Virus record (IMG/VR): IMGVR_UViG_3300001681_000071
Span: 1 to 64,000 of that record
Direction: 5' to 3' (one strand)
DNA: 64,000 bases
Source: a virus
The notes under the pieces were generated by a model. The model ran no database searches and was not told the origin of the DNA. It saw nothing but the letters and a program-made list of their open reading frames with translations. A program made the translations under genes and the position numbers. Positions 20,805-30,963 of the stretch are shown piece after piece. Position 1 is the stretch's first letter. The number at the start of each line of letters is the position of its first letter.

Positions 20805-20996
20805 ATGGTTAAAGTAACGGATAAAAATGGAAACGAGATGTGGATTAACCCAAGCCGGGTTGACTGGATCAGTAAACATATCGACGGAAACACGATCCTG
20901 TGCCTCGGTGAAAAGCATATATTCTTCACGGAATCCCCGGAAGAAATACTGCGCCTCCTCAGAGAGCCCCACAAAACTTGGTGCGAGAATGACTGA
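20805..20996 (+). CDS. FlbD-like small protein
   Basis: The 63-residue protein follows the pattern 'KVT..NG.E..INP..V.WI', then G-T-I-L-C-L-G-E-K...ESPEEIL, which resembles the short FlbD-type proteins (flagellar-operon and phage relatives) that fold as small beta barrels. AAAGGAGAT lies upstream. Its stop overlaps the ATG of the SWIM gene (20989). Role in the phage unknown. Confidence 0.7.
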   Translation: MVKVTDKNGNEMWINPSRVDWISKHIDGNTILCLGEKHIFFTESPEEILRLLREPHKTWCEND

Positions 20997-21333
20997 TTTC
21001 ACCTATTACACCTATTACACATACTATCAATGCGACTCTACTGAGGGGTTTTCAACAGAGGTAAAGGGGAGCAATGGAAATACCTACACGGTAAGATACG
21101 TAGCATCCAACCACAAAGAACATGACTGCTCTCATGGGTATAGCTGTACGTGTCCTGTCTATAAATCCACCAAAACAGCACTATGCAAGCATATTGAACA
21201 AGCACGAAAAGAAGGGAGGCACTGTACTTGGATGCAGTTTCTCGACGGAGGGCAACCTACCGTAGAACCTGATGGAACACACTTGTGTCCTGAGTGTGGA
21301 AGCGATGTAACCAAAAGACAATGGGCTTGCTAA
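20989..21333 (+). CDS. SWIM zinc-finger protein, copy 1
   Basis: The 114-residue protein starts at ATG 20989 inside the end of the previous gene. It has a Tyr/Thr-rich N-terminus from a 'TAYYAC' DNA repeat. A SWIM-type zinc motif follows (YSCTCPVY...LCKHIEQA: CxC...CxH) and then a C-terminal CPEC ribbon half. SWIM domains bind DNA or protein in transposases, MEK kinases and bacterial SNF2 partners. The next gene is a tandem copy (~70% identical by eye). Confidence 0.82.
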   Translation: MTDFTYYTYYTYYQCDSTEGFSTEVKGSNGNTYTVRYVASNHKEHDCSHGYSCTCPVYKSTKTALCKHIEQARKEGRHCTWMQFLDGGQPTVEPDGTHLCPECGSDVTKRQWAC

Positions 21334-21372: not shown

Positions 21373-21708
21373 ATGCATGATTTTACATACCATACATATT
21401 ACCAATGTAACTCAACCGAAGGCTTTTCAACAGAGGTAAAGGGAAGCAATGGAAACGCCTATACCGTAAGATACGGATCGTCCGGTCACAAAGAACATGA
21501 TTATTCTCATGGATATAGTTGTACTTGCCCTTCATACAAGTTCGATAAAAAAGCAACATGCAAGCACATTGAACAGGTAAAAAAAGAAGGTCGGCACTGT
21601 AATTGGATGCAATTTACCGATGGTAACACGCCTACGATAGAACCTGATGGAACACAAGTCTGTCCTGAGTGTGGGAACGGTATAACTGCAAGAGAATGGG
21701 CTTGCTAA
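21373..21708 (+). CDS. SWIM zinc-finger protein, copy 2
   Basis: The 111-residue tandem duplicate of the preceding gene keeps all putative zinc ligands (CTC, CKH, CPEC) and the FSTEVKGSNGN segment. AGTAGGAA precedes the ATG. Substitutions are spread out and the frame is intact, so both copies appear functional. Duplication may raise dosage or allow a heterodimer. Confidence 0.82.
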   Translation: MHDFTYHTYYQCNSTEGFSTEVKGSNGNAYTVRYGSSGHKEHDYSHGYSCTCPSYKFDKKATCKHIEQVKKEGRHCNWMQFTDGNTPTIEPDGTQVCPECGNGITAREWAC

Positions 21709-23647: not shown

Positions 23648-24520
23648 ATGGAAAGGACGATAAGAATTGGCTCATTGTTTTCTGGTATTGGGGGGATTGA
23701 GCTTGGGTTAGAGTATGGTATTCAAAACTCTATAACTATTTGGCAAGTCGAGTCGAACGAATTTTGTCGCCAGGTGCTAAAGCGGCACTGGCCCAAGTCA
23801 AAAATCTATAACGATGTAAAGAAGGTAGGAAAACATAACTTAGAGCCTGTAGACATTATTTGTGGTGGCTTTCCGTGCCAAGATATTTCAATAGCCGGGA
23901 AAAGAGAGGGGATAAATGACGGTGCCAAATCGAGTCTTTGGTGGGAAATGTGGCGGGTTGTTAGCGAGCTACGACCCCGAATCGTCGTCATTGAGAATGT
24001 CTCAGCTATCACTTTTTCCGATGGCGGGGGATGGGAGTTACTACATTCCCTTGCCCAAATCGGGTACTCTTGCGAATGGATTGATTTACGAGCAAGTGAT
24101 CCCCCGTTCAACGCGCCACACGAACGAGAACGCATATTCTTTGTTGCCTACACCGACACCAGCACTGAATATGACCTCTCCTTCAATGATGAAACACCAA
24201 GGGCATCAGAACTTTCGTGCGCTATTGCCGACACCAACAACGAACGATTGCAAAAACACACCGGGCGGTGTAGCCCAATGGGAAAGGCACAGCAGCTTAA
24301 ATATAGAAGCCGCGAAGATGGCGGGACGAACAAAGACGACAATTGGAAAGGATTTCCGATTGAACCCCCGCTTTGTCGAAGAGATGATGGGATTTCCGAT
24401 AGGGTGGACAGACTTAGAGCGTTAGGGAACTCAGTTGTTCCGGCATGTAGTAGGTGGATTGGTAAGCGAATACAAGAGTCAGGTCTTTTAAGGAGAAGAG
24501 ATGCATCAACACTTCCATAA
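23648..24520 (+). CDS. C5-cytosine DNA methyltransferase
   Basis: The 290-residue enzyme has the full motif order: FSGIGG (I, residues 11-16), GGFPCQDIS with catalytic Cys77 (IV), ENV (VI, 116-118), a PHERERIF stretch (VIII, 157-164) and ALGNSVVP (X, 258-265). It transfers methyl from SAM to C5 of cytosine. The variable target-recognition region (~170-250) is short. It could make the 5-methylcytosine that the TET/JBP dioxygenase at 29310-30230 would oxidise. A separate 169-codon ORF lies within it in another frame (23916-24425). The ribosome site is weak, suggesting coupling to the upstream gene. Confidence 0.95.
   Translation: MERTIRIGSLFSGIGGIELGLEYGIQNSITIWQVESNEFCRQVLKRHWPKSKIYNDVKKVGKHNLEPVDIICGGFPCQDISIAGKREGINDGAKSSLWWEMWRVVSELRPRIVVIENVSAITFSDGGGWELLHSLAQIGYSCEWIDLRASDPPFNAPHERERIFFVAYTDTSTEYDLSFNDETPRASELSCAIADTNNERLQKHTGRCSPMGKAQQLKYRSREDGGTNKDDNWKGFPIEPPLCRRDDGISDRVDRLRALGNSVVPACSRWIGKRIQESGLLRRRDASTLP
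23916..24425 (+). CDS. Overprinted ORF inside the C5-methyltransferase gene
   Basis: This 169-codon ORF runs in the same direction as the methyltransferase but in a different frame. Its product has real-looking features: 'SYDPESSSLRMSQLSLF', PLPKSGTLANG, two LLPTPT repeats, and an end of NPRFVEEMMGFPIGWTDLE. I recall proteins with this plan (YDPxSSS...SG...PTPT...NPxWVEWLMGFPxGWT) from many phages, annotated as unknown or as methyltransferase-associated. A 510-base open frame by chance inside a gene of this composition is unlikely. Start codon use is uncertain (ATG 23916 or a later one), and expression is not proven. Confidence 0.5.
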   Translation: MTVPNRVFGGKCGGLLASYDPESSSLRMSQLSLFPMAGDGSYYIPLPKSGTLANGLIYEQVIPRSTRHTNENAYSLLPTPTPALNMTSPSMMKHQGHQNFRALLPTPTTNDCKNTPGGVAQWERHSSLNIEAAKMAGRTKTTIGKDFRLNPRFVEEMMGFPIGWTDLER

Positions 24521-25049
24521 AAATTTAAACGTTAAGAATATATTGTCACGATATAAACCATCGACAATTGTAGAACTTGGTGGGCTTAATGGAGCCAATA
24601 CTTTACAGTTACTCACGATGGGCAAAGTCATCACTATAAGTGATAATAAGATGCCCGATAAGCTCTCTCCTTTCGTTAAGAAAGGCGAACTAAAATGGAT
24701 ACAAGCACTATCGTTTAACGCTCTCAAATCATTTGCTGATGGCTCTATTGAATTCGCTAGTGTTGACACTGACCACAATTACACCACTCTAAAGTTAGAA
24801 CTTATAGAATTAAAAAGAGCAATGAAGAAAGATGGTGTTGTTGTTTTACATGATGTTGAAACCTTTAAGAATAGAAACAACCAACATTATACTCTTGAAT
24901 ATGCCAACGGAGAGCCATATAACTTTGCTCTAATGACACAAGGCCATAGCTACACAGCGGCTTTGACAGAAGAAATACAAGAGGGCGAATGGAAACTGTT
25001 GGATTGGTCAGAAGCGAGCAACGGAGCAGCGGCTATTATCAAAACTTAG
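24501..25049 (+). CDS. SAM-dependent methyltransferase-like protein
   Basis: The 182-residue protein has AAGGAGA before the ATG and overlaps the end of the C5-methyltransferase. IVELGGLNGANT (residues ~23-34) is a class I SAM-binding loop. SVDTDHNYTTLKLELI and a DGVVVLHDV strand match the layout of CmcI/Methyltransf_24-type small-molecule or sugar methyltransferases. Its substrate is unknown; a hypermodified base or its precursor is a speculative option given the neighbourhood. It is the last rightward gene before the convergent operon. Confidence 0.75.
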   Translation: MHQHFHKNLNVKNILSRYKPSTIVELGGLNGANTLQLLTMGKVITISDNKMPDKLSPFVKKGELKWIQALSFNALKSFADGSIEFASVDTDHNYTTLKLELIELKRAMKKDGVVVLHDVETFKNRNNQHYTLEYANGEPYNFALMTQGHSYTAALTEEIQEGEWKLLDWSEASNGAAAIIKT

Positions 25050-25850: not shown

Positions 25851-26801
25851 TTAGAAGAAGTTGTCTGCGTAGTCGGCTATTATTCCAAAATCTCTGAATA
25901 GTTTGCACCTATCAAGGTCTATGCCAACAATCCTTCCATTTAATTCTGACAAGTATTCTCTGCCAAATACAGCCTGTCTTGCCCTGTAAAGCACACCAAA
26001 GCTTTCACCTGTCTGAGACACCACCTTTTGTATCCTCATGTGCATACGGTCTATGTCTCGACCCACGTAGTATCTTCCTTTCTTCAATCCATGGAAGTCA
26101 CACAGCAAACTCTCTGTTATTGCCATATCTACGCCTAATCTTGCGTATTCTGGGTACTCAACTACACTCATTGATAGCTGTTTATGTATCCATCTGGCAT
26201 ATTCTTCCAAAACAACGCTTGGCGATGAGTTTGCCATACCAGTAATGTCGCATACTCCCCTCCTTGGGCCAGAGGCTTCGTCTATTTCCATGGTGGATGG
26301 TATTACATCGAAAACGTTAACCTTATGAAACATATCGGCAGATGTATAAGCAGCCCATCTGCCATTACCCCACACAGTTCTCAGATTGTTAAGAAGTGTT
26401 TTCCAATTGTCTTCTTTGGAATTGGTAAAGTCCTTCGTAAGATATTCTTTAGCACCACCGTTCTTAGATAATTCAACCAAGCTATTTATATGTTTCGTAA
26501 CACTGGTTGTTATAAGATTTCTGCGCTGTTTGCCTATATGAAGCTTATCGTAGTCCTCTGGTATACGTGTTGGATAAGGGTAGCGGAGGAACGTATAATA
26601 GGCAGAAGCCGGATTATAGAAGGCCATATAAAGAAATGATAACCACACTGCCTGTTCTGGATCCAGCCCTTTCTGTACCTCTATTAAAAGACCATGGAAC
26701 GGATCATAGTCCTTTGTTTTCAACTGCTTTCTCGCAAAGTCGTTAAAGTAAAACCACGTATCCGACTTTTTTACGCTGTCTGGATTTATGGTAGTTATCA
26801 T
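25851..26801 (-). CDS. Alpha-glutamyl/putrescinyl-thymine-pyrophosphorylase-like DNA modification enzyme
   Basis: The 316-residue protein matches the aGPT-Pplase group described by Iyer and colleagues in phages with hypermodified bases. A helical glycosylase-type core contains WLSFLYMAFYNPASAYY (residues ~53-69), GNGRWAAYTSADMFHKV (145-161) and a SGPRRGV segment (177-183). In characterised phages this enzyme displaces pyrophosphate from a 5-(pyrophosphoryloxymethyl) pyrimidine in DNA with an amine or amino acid. It overlaps the amidinotransferase gene by four bases and is the last of six coupled genes that include a dioxygenase and a kinase. Family name is by eye. Confidence 0.75.
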   Translation of the reverse strand: MITTINPDSVKKSDTWFYFNDFARKQLKTKDYDPFHGLLIEVQKGLDPEQAVWLSFLYMAFYNPASAYYTFLRYPYPTRIPEDYDKLHIGKQRRNLITTSVTKHINSLVELSKNGGAKEYLTKDFTNSKEDNWKTLLNNLRTVWGNGRWAAYTSADMFHKVNVFDVIPSTMEIDEASGPRRGVCDITGMANSSPSVVLEEYARWIHKQLSMSVVEYPEYARLGVDMAITESLLCDFHGLKKGRYYVGRDIDRMHMRIQKVVSQTGESFGVLYRARQAVFGREYLSELNGRIVGIDLDRCKLFRDFGIIADYADNFF

Positions 26802-27703
26802 TCTTTTCCCATTGGTTCTCTACATATTGGAAGAGTTAGACAAGCAAAACCACCCCCTAATTTCCTTATCTCGTTCATTTTGCTTTTATAAACTACTATT
26901 CCATTGTCTTCTAATATAGACTCGGTTTCAGGACAGTCATCTGGCATCAAAACAGAGTTTGGCGAAAGTGTAATCCAATTCATGGATAGTTTCTCGTTGA
27001 CCTCCTTGCTCGGTTTTAGATGTATAATCTCACCCGACCACTTAAAATTCTCTGTATCACTTCTGGTAAATAATCGTGTCCCAACAATGCGGTTTCCACC
27101 AAGTAAATGTTGTGGAATAGATGGGCCGAACTTATCAACATACTGCACTATACATCGTGTCTCATGGGACCAGAATTCAATTGCCTTTTTCTGGCTTCTG
27201 CCACCACAAGCAACACTAAAGGAGCCATCATTCATTATTAAGATGTCAGAAGCCTCAACAAAACCAATCATCAGTTTCATTGGAGAAGAATAATTACACC
27301 GAAACCACTTCATAATATAGTCAGCTTCACTACTCCTATGGGCTAACCCAGAGCGTGTAACATAAATCACATCACCAACTATTTTCGCCATATCGCGAAC
27401 AAACATTGAGTCAATGCTTTTACCACTACAAGCCTCATTTATATCCAAAACCTCTACTCCCAGACCCCGTAGCTTGGAAGTTAAAGAATCGAATTCCGTC
27501 AGTAATGTGTCATGGTTTGGAAGCTTAATCCAAGATGGCGGAGGCAAAGATGGCGGAGGCAAAGATGTACGTGAAGATAGAGTCATACGTGTATGCGAAA
27601 ACACTTCTGCATGAAATTTCAGATTGGTTGGGCGATTGACCAACACCGTAAACAGGTTCCCTGTTTCGTTTGTAATAAATGCACGCTTTTTATGTCCAAT
27701 CAT
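26798..27703 (-). CDS. Amidinotransferase / DDAH-type guanidino-group enzyme
   Basis: The 301-residue protein has the pentein-fold signatures of dimethylarginine dimethylaminohydrolases and amidinotransferases: MFVRDMAKIV, a D-I-L-I strand, GEIIHLKPS with the catalytic His, and a C-terminal GGGFACLTLP with the catalytic Cys. Such enzymes move an amidino group from arginine to an amine, or hydrolyse guanidines. A PPPS repeat lies near residue 50. It overlaps both neighbours (4 and 14 bases) inside the DNA-modification operon. The attractive inference is that it guanidinylates an amine installed on DNA, or makes the amine donor. Normal use on free amino acids is the alternative. Confidence 0.82.
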   Translation of the reverse strand: MIGHKKRAFITNETGNLFTVLVNRPTNLKFHAEVFSHTRMTLSSRTSLPPPSLPPPSWIKLPNHDTLLTEFDSLTSKLRGLGVEVLDINEACSGKSIDSMFVRDMAKIVGDVIYVTRSGLAHRSSEADYIMKWFRCNYSSPMKLMIGFVEASDILIMNDGSFSVACGGRSQKKAIEFWSHETRCIVQYVDKFGPSIPQHLLGGNRIVGTRLFTRSDTENFKWSGEIIHLKPSKEVNEKLSMNWITLSPNSVLMPDDCPETESILEDNGIVVYKSKMNEIRKLGGGFACLTLPICREPMGKE

Positions 27704-28787
27704 TTGAAGTCATCGGATATAAAAGCTGTTTCATAATCGTTCGTATTCTTTCTTTTTTTGCGAAAAGTAGTATTTCCTCTTTTCTTTTGTGCCATCTATA
27801 CTTCTTAGGGGAACTTGTTGCCATAGTGAGTTTAAGATCAATCGGATGCGGGGGCTCTATACCAATGTCCCTGCAAATCGTATGAATCATTCTTTGGGGA
27901 TGGGCTACAACTTCTTCAAACTTATAAGATAATGATATATTATATTTAAGTGCCATCGAATGTGCGTTTGCCCACTGGTTCAAACAAACCTCGATCAGCC
28001 TTTTGTTTTTGTCGTCATACCAGCCTGGGTAAAGGTCAAAACACCACCAATTATAATAATTGTAATTCTTAATATTAAGCCCTCCGACCTTGTAAGCAAA
28101 AAAGGCCCTTTTGTGCAACCATCCATCCATAAGTCCATTAACAGTAGCCGCAAAAGAACGTTTGAGATGTATATATTGAATCTCGCTAACGGGGAATAGT
28201 TCTTTAAATAAGCTTGGCCTATACACATTTTGCGGTGTTTTAAAGATGATGACCTTGCCACTTAAAGACAATGGATAAGAACATGCTGTTGGCATGACAA
28301 ATGGCGGTTCTTCCAGTATCACCTTGTGTTTTTGTGCTTCGCGGTCTTCCAATTTTCCATCGTACCAACTTTGGTCTACATCTTCAAATCTTGCCGTATC
28401 CTTGCCAGGCCATTGTAGTATCTTTCTTATGTGTATAGAATTTATAAGATGAGACTCTACACTAATATGCTTGTGACAAAGTTCTCCGCGCACAAGCGTT
28501 TTCAATTCTAATATATTATCAATTTTATCTAGTCTGTTCCCGCACAAGTAATCCTCATTCACAGCATTGCCAGTTAGCTTTAAATAAGGCTCTATCTCGC
28601 CTTGTAGGCTCACTACACTTGGGCTTCTGCTCAATACATCGAATAAACAACTACTCCCACTCCTTGAGGCCGTAAGAATTACAACTACTTTCTTTGGTTC
28701 GCCTATTGGGGAGTTGAGCAGTTTTCGGATATTGTTTTTTGCTGCCCCTATTTGATGATCATTCGGTTTCAACAATAGTTCTGGCAT
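27690..28787 (-). CDS. Sulfotransferase-like P-loop protein
   Basis: The 365-residue protein opens with a PAPS-binding-type loop, ILTASRSGSSCLFDVLSRSP (residues ~37-56), and later has YIHLKRSFAATVNG (around residues 205-220). These fit the two PAPS-contacting regions of sulfotransferase-fold proteins. The family moves sulfate from PAPS to hydroxyl or amino groups on sugars, tyrosines or small molecules. It overlaps the kinase gene by 29 bases and the amidinotransferase gene by 14, so it belongs to the modification operon. Sulfation of a base modification would be new; a small-molecule substrate is also possible. Confidence 0.7.
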   Translation of the reverse strand: MPELLLKPNDHQIGAAKNNIRKLLNSPIGEPKKVVVILTASRSGSSCLFDVLSRSPSVVSLQGEIEPYLKLTGNAVNEDYLCGNRLDKIDNILELKTLVRGELCHKHISVESHLINSIHIRKILQWPGKDTARFEDVDQSWYDGKLEDREAQKHKVILEEPPFVMPTACSYPLSLSGKVIIFKTPQNVYRPSLFKELFPVSEIQYIHLKRSFAATVNGLMDGWLHKRAFFAYKVGGLNIKNYNYYNWWCFDLYPGWYDDKNKRLIEVCLNQWANAHSMALKYNISLSYKFEEVVAHPQRMIHTICRDIGIEPPHPIDLKLTMATSSPKKYRWHKRKEEILLFAKKERIRTIMKQLLYPMTSNDWT

Positions 28788-29313
28788 TTGTATTGATCCA
28801 ATCTATTACTATCTCTGAAAGGGCTTTGGGGCTTTGCTTGCCATCTAAAATCAAACGGTCTCTATTCTTAAACATGTTAAAAAAGTTCTTTGCCTTTGTC
28901 TCCCTTCCCTTTAACCAATTTGCATTTTGATTGGACCCACGTTCTTTCCTACGTTCCACAAGAACATCATTTGGCAAATCTATCAATATACAAAAGCACC
29001 CGTCAGCGAATTCATTAACATATTCAAGACAGTATTTTGTAGAGAACCTATCGCCATCAAATATGGTGACAGAGTATTTTTCATTAGCCAGAAGAAAGCT
29101 ACTCCAATACTGCAAAGACTCTTTGAAGGCATTGTATGGAACGGTATCGCCACCATCGAACGTCTTCCCCAAGTAATGACCAGACAGTATGATGTTGTTT
29201 GTAAGGGTCCACTTTGGCTTAACTACAAACTCTGTATCGAATGGGTCAATATAGTTTCTTAGCATGGTTGTTTTTCCACAACCAGGAGAACCAACAACCC
29301 AAACTCCTATCAC
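28759..29313 (-). CDS. P-loop kinase, probable hydroxymethyl-pyrimidine DNA kinase
   Basis: The 184-residue protein starts at GTG 29313. Walker A is GSPGCGKTT (residues 8-16), TIFDGDRFS is a Walker-B-like strand, and ERRKERG is a lid-type segment. Small P-loop kinases beside aGPT-Pplase genes phosphorylate 5-hydroxymethyluracil in phage DNA (5-HMUDK, characterised in phages such as SP10 and ViI). In this operon it sits between the dioxygenase and the later enzymes, the expected order of steps. A nucleotide kinase is the alternative. Confidence 0.78.
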   Translation of the reverse strand: MIGVWVVGSPGCGKTTMLRNYIDPFDTEFVVKPKWTLTNNIILSGHYLGKTFDGGDTVPYNAFKESLQYWSSFLLANEKYSVTIFDGDRFSTKYCLEYVNEFADGCFCILIDLPNDVLVERRKERGSNQNANWLKGRETKAKNFFNMFKNRDRLILDGKQSPKALSEIVIDWINTNARTIVETE

Positions 29314-30230
29314 AATGACTCCAGCTTTCTGGTGTTGTATTTCTTGGCCCTTTTAAGCTCCTCTTCTGGGGATAAGCAGCCAAGGATACGGTTTCTAAGA
29401 TACATAACTACGCTAACTCGATACCAATCCTTATTCTTTTTTCCTTCGGCTTTTGGAGGAATATTGCCGTGCCATACAGCAGGGTTAAAAAGTATAAAAT
29501 CGCCATGCCGCATATTTACAGCCAAGCTAAATTCTGGAAGGACCAATTCAAATCCAGAATAATCTCCGTGTCTCATGGCAAACATGCAACCAAAACCTTC
29601 TTTAAGGTCGCCACTGTCTTGATGATAAGCAGCACACACCGTATTATTGACGGAGATTGTTGAAAATGGTGTGCCAGGTACTACCCAAGCTGGATGAGCT
29701 TTGTTTGCAAATTCTGTTTGTATCTCATGGAAGTTTGGCAGCAAAGACTTATAGATCCGCGAACACTTCCGCAAGTGTTTGGCAATTTTTGCCCATTCCT
29801 CTGGGTGGTCGCGTGTATACGTTGTTGCTCTACAATATGGGAAGCGACCTCCAACGCTCTCATAAAATCCACCTATAGAGCTGTAGACGGAGACCATTCT
29901 GCCATTTTCATCTAATGATCTCTCTGATTTAGATAATGTGCCATCCTTTTTGATTACCCGACTTTGCTTGTATCCGGCATATGCCGCCCTTGCATCTGAT
30001 GGGTATCTCATAAATTCCCTATATGGCTTTCTCACTTCTTCCAGTTCTTCGTCAGTGAAACATCCACGCCTCATAAGTATAATGGGTATACCATTGCTGC
30101 TATATACATCACAATTGCCGTCTATTATTAGACCATAATGGTTAGGTCTTGGATGGGTAGATTTCCAAGGCTCTATCTTTTCAGCCGATACTTTCGACCT
30201 TACCACTATCTTCATTGTTTTCATTATCAT
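29310..30230 (-). CDS. TET/JBP-family 2-oxoglutarate/Fe(II) dioxygenase
   Basis: The ~306-residue protein starts at ATG 30230; TTG 30239, ATG 30224 and ATG 30215 are alternatives within the end of the ParB-like gene. The double-stranded beta-helix core is clear: TISVNNTVCAAYHQDSGD with the HxD iron ligands (His203, Asp205), a G-F-E-L-V-L-P-E strand, and RHGDFILFNPAVWHGN with the distal His (~254). The 2-oxoglutarate-binding Arg lies in WYRVSV (~271). This is the TET/JBP pattern. Phage TETs oxidise 5-methylcytosine in DNA (Burke et al. 2021), and JBP acts on thymine. With the phage's C5-methyltransferase, 5mC is the likely substrate. Confidence 0.88.
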   Translation of the reverse strand: MIMKTMKIVVRSKVSAEKIEPWKSTHPRPNHYGLIIDGNCDVYSSNGIPIILMRRGCFTDEELEEVRKPYREFMRYPSDARAAYAGYKQSRVIKKDGTLSKSERSLDENGRMVSVYSSIGGFYESVGGRFPYCRATTYTRDHPEEWAKIAKHLRKCSRIYKSLLPNFHEIQTEFANKAHPAWVVPGTPFSTISVNNTVCAAYHQDSGDLKEGFGCMFAMRHGDYSGFELVLPEFSLAVNMRHGDFILFNPAVWHGNIPPKAEGKKNKDWYRVSVVMYLRNRILGCLSPEEELKRAKKYNTRKLESL

Positions 30231-30963
30231 CACCACCAAGACGCTTGTACTCTGCCATTACCGCTTCATAAACTGTATCTGGCATATTATCCGTGTCATA
30301 TGCGTATGATAACGACTTACAAGCCATCTTGAATTTTTGGCACTTCTCGTTTTCAAATATAAGCTGAATCATTCTGGAAGTAGAAATAGTTGGATTATCT
30401 ATCGTGATTACATCTTCGGCAATTGCGTCTTCATCTCCAGAATCCCAGACATTAGTAACGGTAGAATTTTCTGTTCTTCCACCAGCACCAGCATTGGCAT
30501 CATTGCCACTATACTTTTCATCGGGAGGAGCAAAGAAGTCTAAGGAGTCGTCTATTCCCCCAAAGGAATTGATCAAATCATCCATTTCACTACCAGTGAA
30601 GCCAAGCATCGTTGGATCAAAATCTGCAAGTTTGGCTAACTCTTCTAAGTGGTGTGCAAGCATAGCCTCATCCCATCCGGACAGTTCTCCAGAACGATTG
30701 AGCCTAATAGATAATTTTCTTGCTACCTCATCGGATACGTCCAAATAAACTATATTTGTTGTTTCGTATCCGAGTTCCTTTAAAACCTTTAGCCTTGCAT
30801 TCCCAGCAATAACCATTTGGGTTGTTTTCTGAACAATTAACGGCTCTACCTGCCCATGATCTTCAATGCTATCTCGTATAGCTGCATAGTTTTGTTCATT
30901 GTGTTTTCTTGGGTTTTGCGGATCATAGACAAGTAAATCAACTTCAACTTCGGCATATTCCAT
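30181..30963 (-). CDS. ParB/sulfiredoxin-fold protein
   Basis: The 260-residue protein begins with a ParB-like domain: LLVYDPQNPRKHNEQN, then IEDHGQVEPLIVQ and VIAGNARLKVLKELGY. The following 'LSGWDEAMLAHHLEELA...GF' stretch is typical of ParB domains that are usually fused to DNA methylases in phages. Here the C-terminus is an acidic Asp/Asn-rich region without a methylase. ParB domains are described in hypermodification gene neighbourhoods and may direct the enzymes to DNA. It overlaps the dioxygenase gene start. Confidence 0.83.
   Translation of the reverse strand: MEYAEVEVDLLVYDPQNPRKHNEQNYAAIRDSIEDHGQVEPLIVQKTTQMVIAGNARLKVLKELGYETTNIVYLDVSDEVARKLSIRLNRSGELSGWDEAMLAHHLEELAKLADFDPTMLGFTGSEMDDLINSFGGIDDSLDFFAPPDEKYSGNDANAGAGGRTENSTVTNVWDSGDEDAIAEDVITIDNPTISTSRMIQLIFENEKCQKFKMACKSLSYAYDTDNMPDTVYEAVMAEYKRLGGDDNENNEDSGKVESIG

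Follow-up and report, generated by a model that had tools for sequence, protein, structure and literature searches.

A DDAH/ADI-like pentein paired with a sulfotransferase-like protein in putative DNA-hypermodification operons of phages

The DNA analysed here, referred to as the window, comprises positions 1 to 64,000 of the uncultivated-virus record IMGVR_UViG_3300001681_000071 in IMG/VR, which as a whole is 79,172 bases long. Six genes on its minus strand, transcribed in the order ParB-like, TET/JBP, Ploopntkinase3, ST, PENT and ADDT (the current name of aGPT-Pplase2), make up the locus of interest, and a cytosine methyltransferase gene lies on the plus strand:

30181..30963, minus strand: ParB-like protein, first gene of the operon (Pfam PF02195, E 6.8e-8)
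29310..30239, minus strand: TET/JBP 2OG-Fe(II) dioxygenase, presumed source of a 5-hydroxymethyl pyrimidine (Pfam PF12851, E 2.2e-21)
28759..29313, minus strand: P-loop kinase (Ploopntkinase3), presumed hydroxymethyl-base kinase (Pfam PF18751, E 8.9e-7)
27690..28787, minus strand: ST, Sulfotransfer_3-like protein, 365 aa (Pfam, Foldseek, co-occurrence with PENT)
26798..27703, minus strand: PENT, DDAH/ADI-like pentein, 301 aa (ORF, Pfam, NCBIfam, PDB profile, invariant residues)
25851..26801, minus strand: ADDT, amino acid:DNA transferase of the aGPT-Pplase2 family, 316 aa (Pfam PF18724, E 1.2e-19)
23648..24520, plus strand: C5-cytosine methyltransferase (Pfam)

The PENT frame runs from 27703 to 26798 with an ATG start and fills exactly the interval given by the initial annotation; only the strand needs correcting, as the gene is on the minus strand and the plus strand of this interval is closed by many stops. 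Its placement between aGPT-Pplase and a sulfotransferase-like gene holds, with ADDT found downstream and Sulfotransfer_3 upstream by Pfam. Neighbouring genes of the operon all overlap, by 4 to 59 bases (14 bases between ST and PENT, ATGA between PENT and ADDT), and these successive overlaps resemble those of a translationally coupled operon. The operon brings together an ADDT domain (PF18724), a presumed supplier of 5-hydroxymethyl pyrimidine (PF12851) and a kinase (PF18751), as in ADDT-type hypermodification, and the assignment of PENT to a phage DNA-modification operon is supported. The ParB-like gene likewise heads the operon in loci L002, L008 and L009. The P-loop kinase at 28759-29313 (minus strand) also matches phrog_800, a PHROG named 'terminase small subunit', a name that this kinase family may have been given in error in hypermodification phages.

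PENT scores 25.2 bits against the Pfam model for arginine deiminase (ADI; cut-off 22.8). Among 12 phage homologues, with pairwise identity down to 19–25%, 16 positions are invariant, including the catalytic set D104, R123, E126, E150, D153, R169, H199 and C288. Sequence establishes PENT as a member of the pentein superfamily, C288, H199, E150, D104 and D153 being invariant in all 12 sequences, and the initial reading of PENT as a guanidino-group enzyme is borne out by family and conserved residues. The best whole-domain profile match is DDAH of P. aeruginosa (3rhy/3bpb/1h70), whose D66, R85, E88, E114, D117, R132 and C249 correspond to PENT D104, R123, E126, E150, D153, R169 and C288, respectively, so that the DDAH set R123, R169, D104, E150 and C288 is both aligned and invariant. 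PENT differs from DDAH in its phage operon context, in overall sequence (about 24% identity) and in having a PQHLLGG loop where DDAH has LHLKTG. In DDAH the substrate carboxylate is bound by R85 and R132 and, since R123 and R169 align with these, an arginine-like substrate is expected. Foldseek with an AlphaFold2 model of PENT places DDAH at the top (8e-9), with other penteins including SxtG, HsvA and AGAT also matched; the models are weak (built on five sequences, with pLDDT 51 for PENT, and 64) and serve as a consistency check only.

Three motifs had been put forward as marks of the fold. GGGFAC was correctly recognised, its cysteine being the invariant C288, and FVRD is right in part, as it contains the invariant D104. 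GEIIHL fails as a catalytic motif: its histidine varies, relatives reading GECVSL, KIIHL, TCWRL or GCIPL, and we ruled it out as the catalytic one because it is unconserved whereas H199, in PQHLLGG, is the sole invariant histidine of the family. In several HMM alignments H199 falls on the histidine of the DDAH LHLKTG motif, and in MAFFT it is about a dozen residues off; the register of this loop relative to DDAH is uncertain.

Which reaction PENT catalyses is a separate matter. The phage PENT profile (n = 10) matches PDB structures of DDAH (7e-25), ADI (1e-18), arginine dihydrolase (8e-12), AGAT (7e-9) and StrB1 (3e-8). NCBIfam models for DDAH, ADI and arginine dihydrolase are also matched, all far below their equivalog cut-offs (43.7 bits against 340 for DDAH), so that these scores do not assign substrate or reaction and PENT is not filed as a DDAH; none of the amidinotransferase models of NCBIfam is matched. 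AGAT, StrB1 and SxtG have the pentein fold and the catalytic Cys and His in common with PENT, which is smaller and lacks an aspartate of theirs: an HxD motif after the catalytic histidine is typical of ADI and AGAT, and PENT reads H199-L200-L201, with L or Q at position +2 in all relatives. Since the closest profiles, DDAH and ADI, are those of hydrolases, 'amidinotransferase', as the gene was originally called, is not the best label, and an arginase-family ureohydrolase found twice in the PENT slot (see below) also speaks against it. The sequence leans to a hydrolase, without deciding between hydrolase and transferase, and an amidinotransferase making a guanidino base becomes one candidate option among several, not the best supported. 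Arginine dihydrolase (ArgZ/AgrE), considered for sharing a product with arginase, was set aside: its scores are lower and position 104 is Asp in PENT, where ArgZ/AgrE have Asn.

The partner gene product, ST, lies just over the Pfam Sulfotransfer_3 cut-off (27.1 against 27.0 bits), and its relatives score 37.8 (L083), 41.8 (L090) and only 14.6 bits (L002). Its best Foldseek match is tyrosylprotein sulfotransferase (E 1.3e-3), and S41, R42, G44 and S45 of its 5'-phosphosulfate loop, SRSGS, are invariant. From the loop and the family score together we describe ST as a putative sulfotransferase, an assignment made on weak scores.

The wider family was uncovered with an ADDT profile, pentein and ST profiles being used afterwards. 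The ADDT search of IMG/VR gave 62 loci, six of which carry ST; the same six carry PENT, and neither gene was found in the other 56 within the flanks examined. These six represent four lineages besides that of the window, namely L002/L003 (numbered L011/L012 in the ADDT-profile scan), L013 (a 188-kb record), L018 and L028/L029. L002 keeps the six-gene order of the window, while L003 has the last four genes, with the contig edge at the kinase. The conserved linkage to aGPT-Pplase genes in other phages, on which the initial annotation had made its proposal depend, is therefore present. In scans started from PENT, ST is always alongside, except in L121, whose contig data stop immediately 5' of PENT; every IMG/VR pentein of this subfamily on a contig of sufficient length thus sits with an ST gene. 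Distances between PENT sequences correlate with those between their ST partners (r=0.95, Mantel p=1e-4, 12 lineages). Some contigs are near-duplicates, so the independent cases number about a dozen, and all PENT-carrying relatives are metagenome contigs of which the completeness is not established. By tblastn, neither gene was detected in 50,697 phage records, and no cultured-phage record was found with either. Single-sequence searches with P0001 gave no match in IMG/VR or INPHARED, a two-sequence profile gave none in GTDB contigs, and a wider pentein profile found only distant relatives in bacterial genomes, where the profiles detected no other module genes.

ST and PENT also occur in a second architecture, in AT-rich phages, consisting of a kinase, ST, PENT, a divergent thymidylate-synthase-fold protein and an APH-type kinase, in some cases with a second thymidylate synthase (L083, L085, L087, L081, L091, L118 and L120, from PENT- or ST-started scans). 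Whole-record searches, made for part of this group, detected no ADDT, and the divergent thymidylate-synthase-fold protein might attach an amine in its place. This protein has an apparent active-site PC motif; together with the APH-type kinase and, often, the second thymidylate synthase, it makes up the region that follows ST and PENT (L083:9050-11697, L087:9195-11785, L118:7863-9570).

Two further loci, L088 and L090, carry ST and ADDT without PENT, and in both an arginase-family gene directly follows ADDT (L088, 8314-9099, Pfam 9.1e-6; L090, 2064-2744, Pfam 5.9e-13). Both genes have the DxHxD and DxD metal-binding motifs of arginases, as DSHGD and DTD in L088 and as DAHPD and DGDVLDP in L090, where the copy seems to be without the N-terminal part of the domain. 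Record-wide searches of 16 records found arginase in these two only; the ADI/pentein family was not found in either of them, and arginase was absent from the PENT records searched. Should PENT and arginase fill one and the same position, what they share is the guanidino group, and a guanidine-making role would become less likely. The exchange, seen in only two contigs, suggests that the slot handles arginine or its guanidino group, and tips the balance slightly towards hydrolysis and away from amidine transfer.

As to the base that is modified, TET is present in the records of the window, L002 and L018, and HMUDK_hel, the 5-hmdU DNA kinase, in those of L028, L088 and L090, while most other module records have thymidylate-synthase-fold enzymes. 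With a 5-hmdU kinase in at least three records, the target there points to thymine. TET could draw 5mC from the C5-methyltransferase of the window, but this gene is not an evident core part, being absent from a syntenic 79-kb relative, and on that ground cytosine was rejected as the only possible target. For the window itself both T and C are candidates.

Starting from the gene families, the catalytic residues, the linkage of PENT, ST and ADDT, the correlated divergence of the first two and the arginase that stands in for PENT in two phages, we propose, as a reading that we favour but would not yet call probable, that PENT is a DDAH/ADI-type pentein working with ST on an arginine-derived side chain of a hypermodified pyrimidine. 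In the order of steps that we envisage, TET would make a 5-hydroxymethyl pyrimidine, the P-loop kinase would phosphorylate it, and ADDT would swap the phosphate for an amino acid, which we suppose to be arginine or an arginine derivative. Cys288 of PENT, with His199 and Glu150, would then attack the guanidinium carbon and hydrolyse it rather than transfer the amidino group, so that either a citrulline-like ureido group remains or an amine is set free. Finally, the side chain would receive a sulfo group through ST. A broader proposal, more tentative still, is that these phages possess a class of DNA base not described before, a sulfonated pyrimidine whose side chain derives from arginine; that the pentein or arginase determines whether this side chain is guanidino, ureido or amine; that a dedicated module of ST and guanidino-enzyme makes the base; and that the module plugs into at least two routes, one through TET or the 5-hmdU kinase with ADDT and one through thymidylate synthase without it.

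The reaction could also run the other way, with PENT as an amidinotransferase that moves the amidino group of free arginine onto an amine on the base and so creates a guanidino base, for instance with the secondary amine of an ADDT-attached glycine as acceptor in creatine-like chemistry. The fold and the Cys/His/Glu chemistry are common to AGAT and StrB1, the ligands for an arginine-type carboxylate are conserved, ADDT would provide the amine-bearing DNA, and SxtG (6u1r) and HsvA (5wpi) are among the Foldseek matches of the weak model. In E-value the hydrolases nevertheless lead by 10 to 16 orders of magnitude, and no amidinotransferase model of NCBIfam is matched; the missing HxD aspartate and the arginase-family gene that occupies the slot in two phages, suggesting the opposite reaction, weigh in the same direction, and we regard amidino transfer to the base as unlikely, albeit worth keeping in view. 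The arginase exchange would also be accounted for if the slot served precursor supply, as ornithine would be a product shared by arginase and an amidinotransferase or dihydrolase: arginase and PENT, the latter through amidino transfer or two hydrolytic steps, would then both convert free arginine into ornithine for ADDT to attach to the base, much as ornithine feeds putrescinyl-thymine in phage phiW-14. This explanation has to contend with an invariant Asp at D104, where the arginine dihydrolases have Asn, and with hosts that normally make ornithine themselves, and it leaves the presence of ST without explanation; we consider it improbable.

More remote from DNA chemistry is the idea that PENT is an unrelated gene of arginine metabolism or counter-defence, depleting host arginine for example, that came into the operon by chance. 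Free arginine is a possible substrate, and penteins and arginases are known metabolic enzymes, but the linkage to ST plus ADDT or thymidylate synthase in every assessable contig, in two architectures, and the divergence of PENT in step with that of ST make such an accident very improbable. That the family match is degenerate or due to chance, with no enzymatic role, would be in keeping with the low single-sequence scores; this is hardly credible, and is already contradicted by conservation, as the 12 sequences, at the low identities given above, keep all the catalytic residues among their sixteen invariant positions.

Operons of the same kind are known from the actinophages CloverMinnie and MO526 and from Rhodococcus phage Tonitrus, in which ParB, TET, ADDT and P-loop kinase genes stand in one operon as here, with the same presumed logic of oxidation, phosphorylation and attachment of an amino acid; the Tonitrus set was described as a thymidine hypermodification system (PMC11955845). 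The difference is in the tailoring slot, which is taken by an FAD/NAD oxidase-like protein in the actinophages (DAO in MO526) and by ST and a DDAH-like pentein in the window. The 5-hmdU DNA kinase/ADDT pathway of the M6/ViI/phiW-14 type (PMC6449724) is approached by L028, L088 and L090, whose records have ADDT and ST together with HMUDK_hel, which places the module on the 5-hmdU route as well; ST, pentein and arginase are not described for that pathway in the literature searched. An amidinotransferase-like phage gene is on record in Campylobacter phages CP220/CPt10, as a putative glycine amidinotransferase (PMC2853527), but its cluster is a different one, with radical-SAM genes, and we found no mention of ADDT or ST in PMC2853527.

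The literature searched yielded no phage DNA base that is amidinotransferase-, sulfotransferase- or guanidino-based. To our knowledge the module is new relative to the main hypermodification papers, and it would add a new tailoring module to phage DNA hypermodification, a type of system that is already known. What recurs is a DDAH-like pentein (or arginase) with a sulfotransferase-like protein, neither type being described for DNA modification in the literature searched, and the exchange of pentein and arginase in one slot predicts an arginine-derived side chain. By hypermodifying bases, phages guard their DNA against restriction and CRISPR nucleases, and every tailoring enzyme newly found offers a way to a new base and to tools for DNA chemistry.

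Several other genes were noticed. In the 188-kb record, a gene of the adenylosuccinate-synthetase family (L013:3330-4403, Pfam 1.5e-53) lies some 2.6 kb upstream of ADDT, conceivably with a PurZ-like role in base replacement. In the window, a Methyltransf_24 family methyltransferase (24501-25049, plus strand) adjoins the C5-methyltransferase gene, inside which a 169-aa frame lies in another reading frame (23916-24425, plus strand); it has no Pfam match, contains methyltransferase-like stretches (LPTPT..., MMGFPIGWTD) and could reflect either a frameshift or an additional, overlapping gene. A small Cys/His-rich gene is duplicated in tandem at 20827-21333 and 21373-21708, the two copies sharing repeats of 244 and 97 nt at 77–81% identity with a spacing of 375, and the second copy has a weak match to the SWIM zinc finger.
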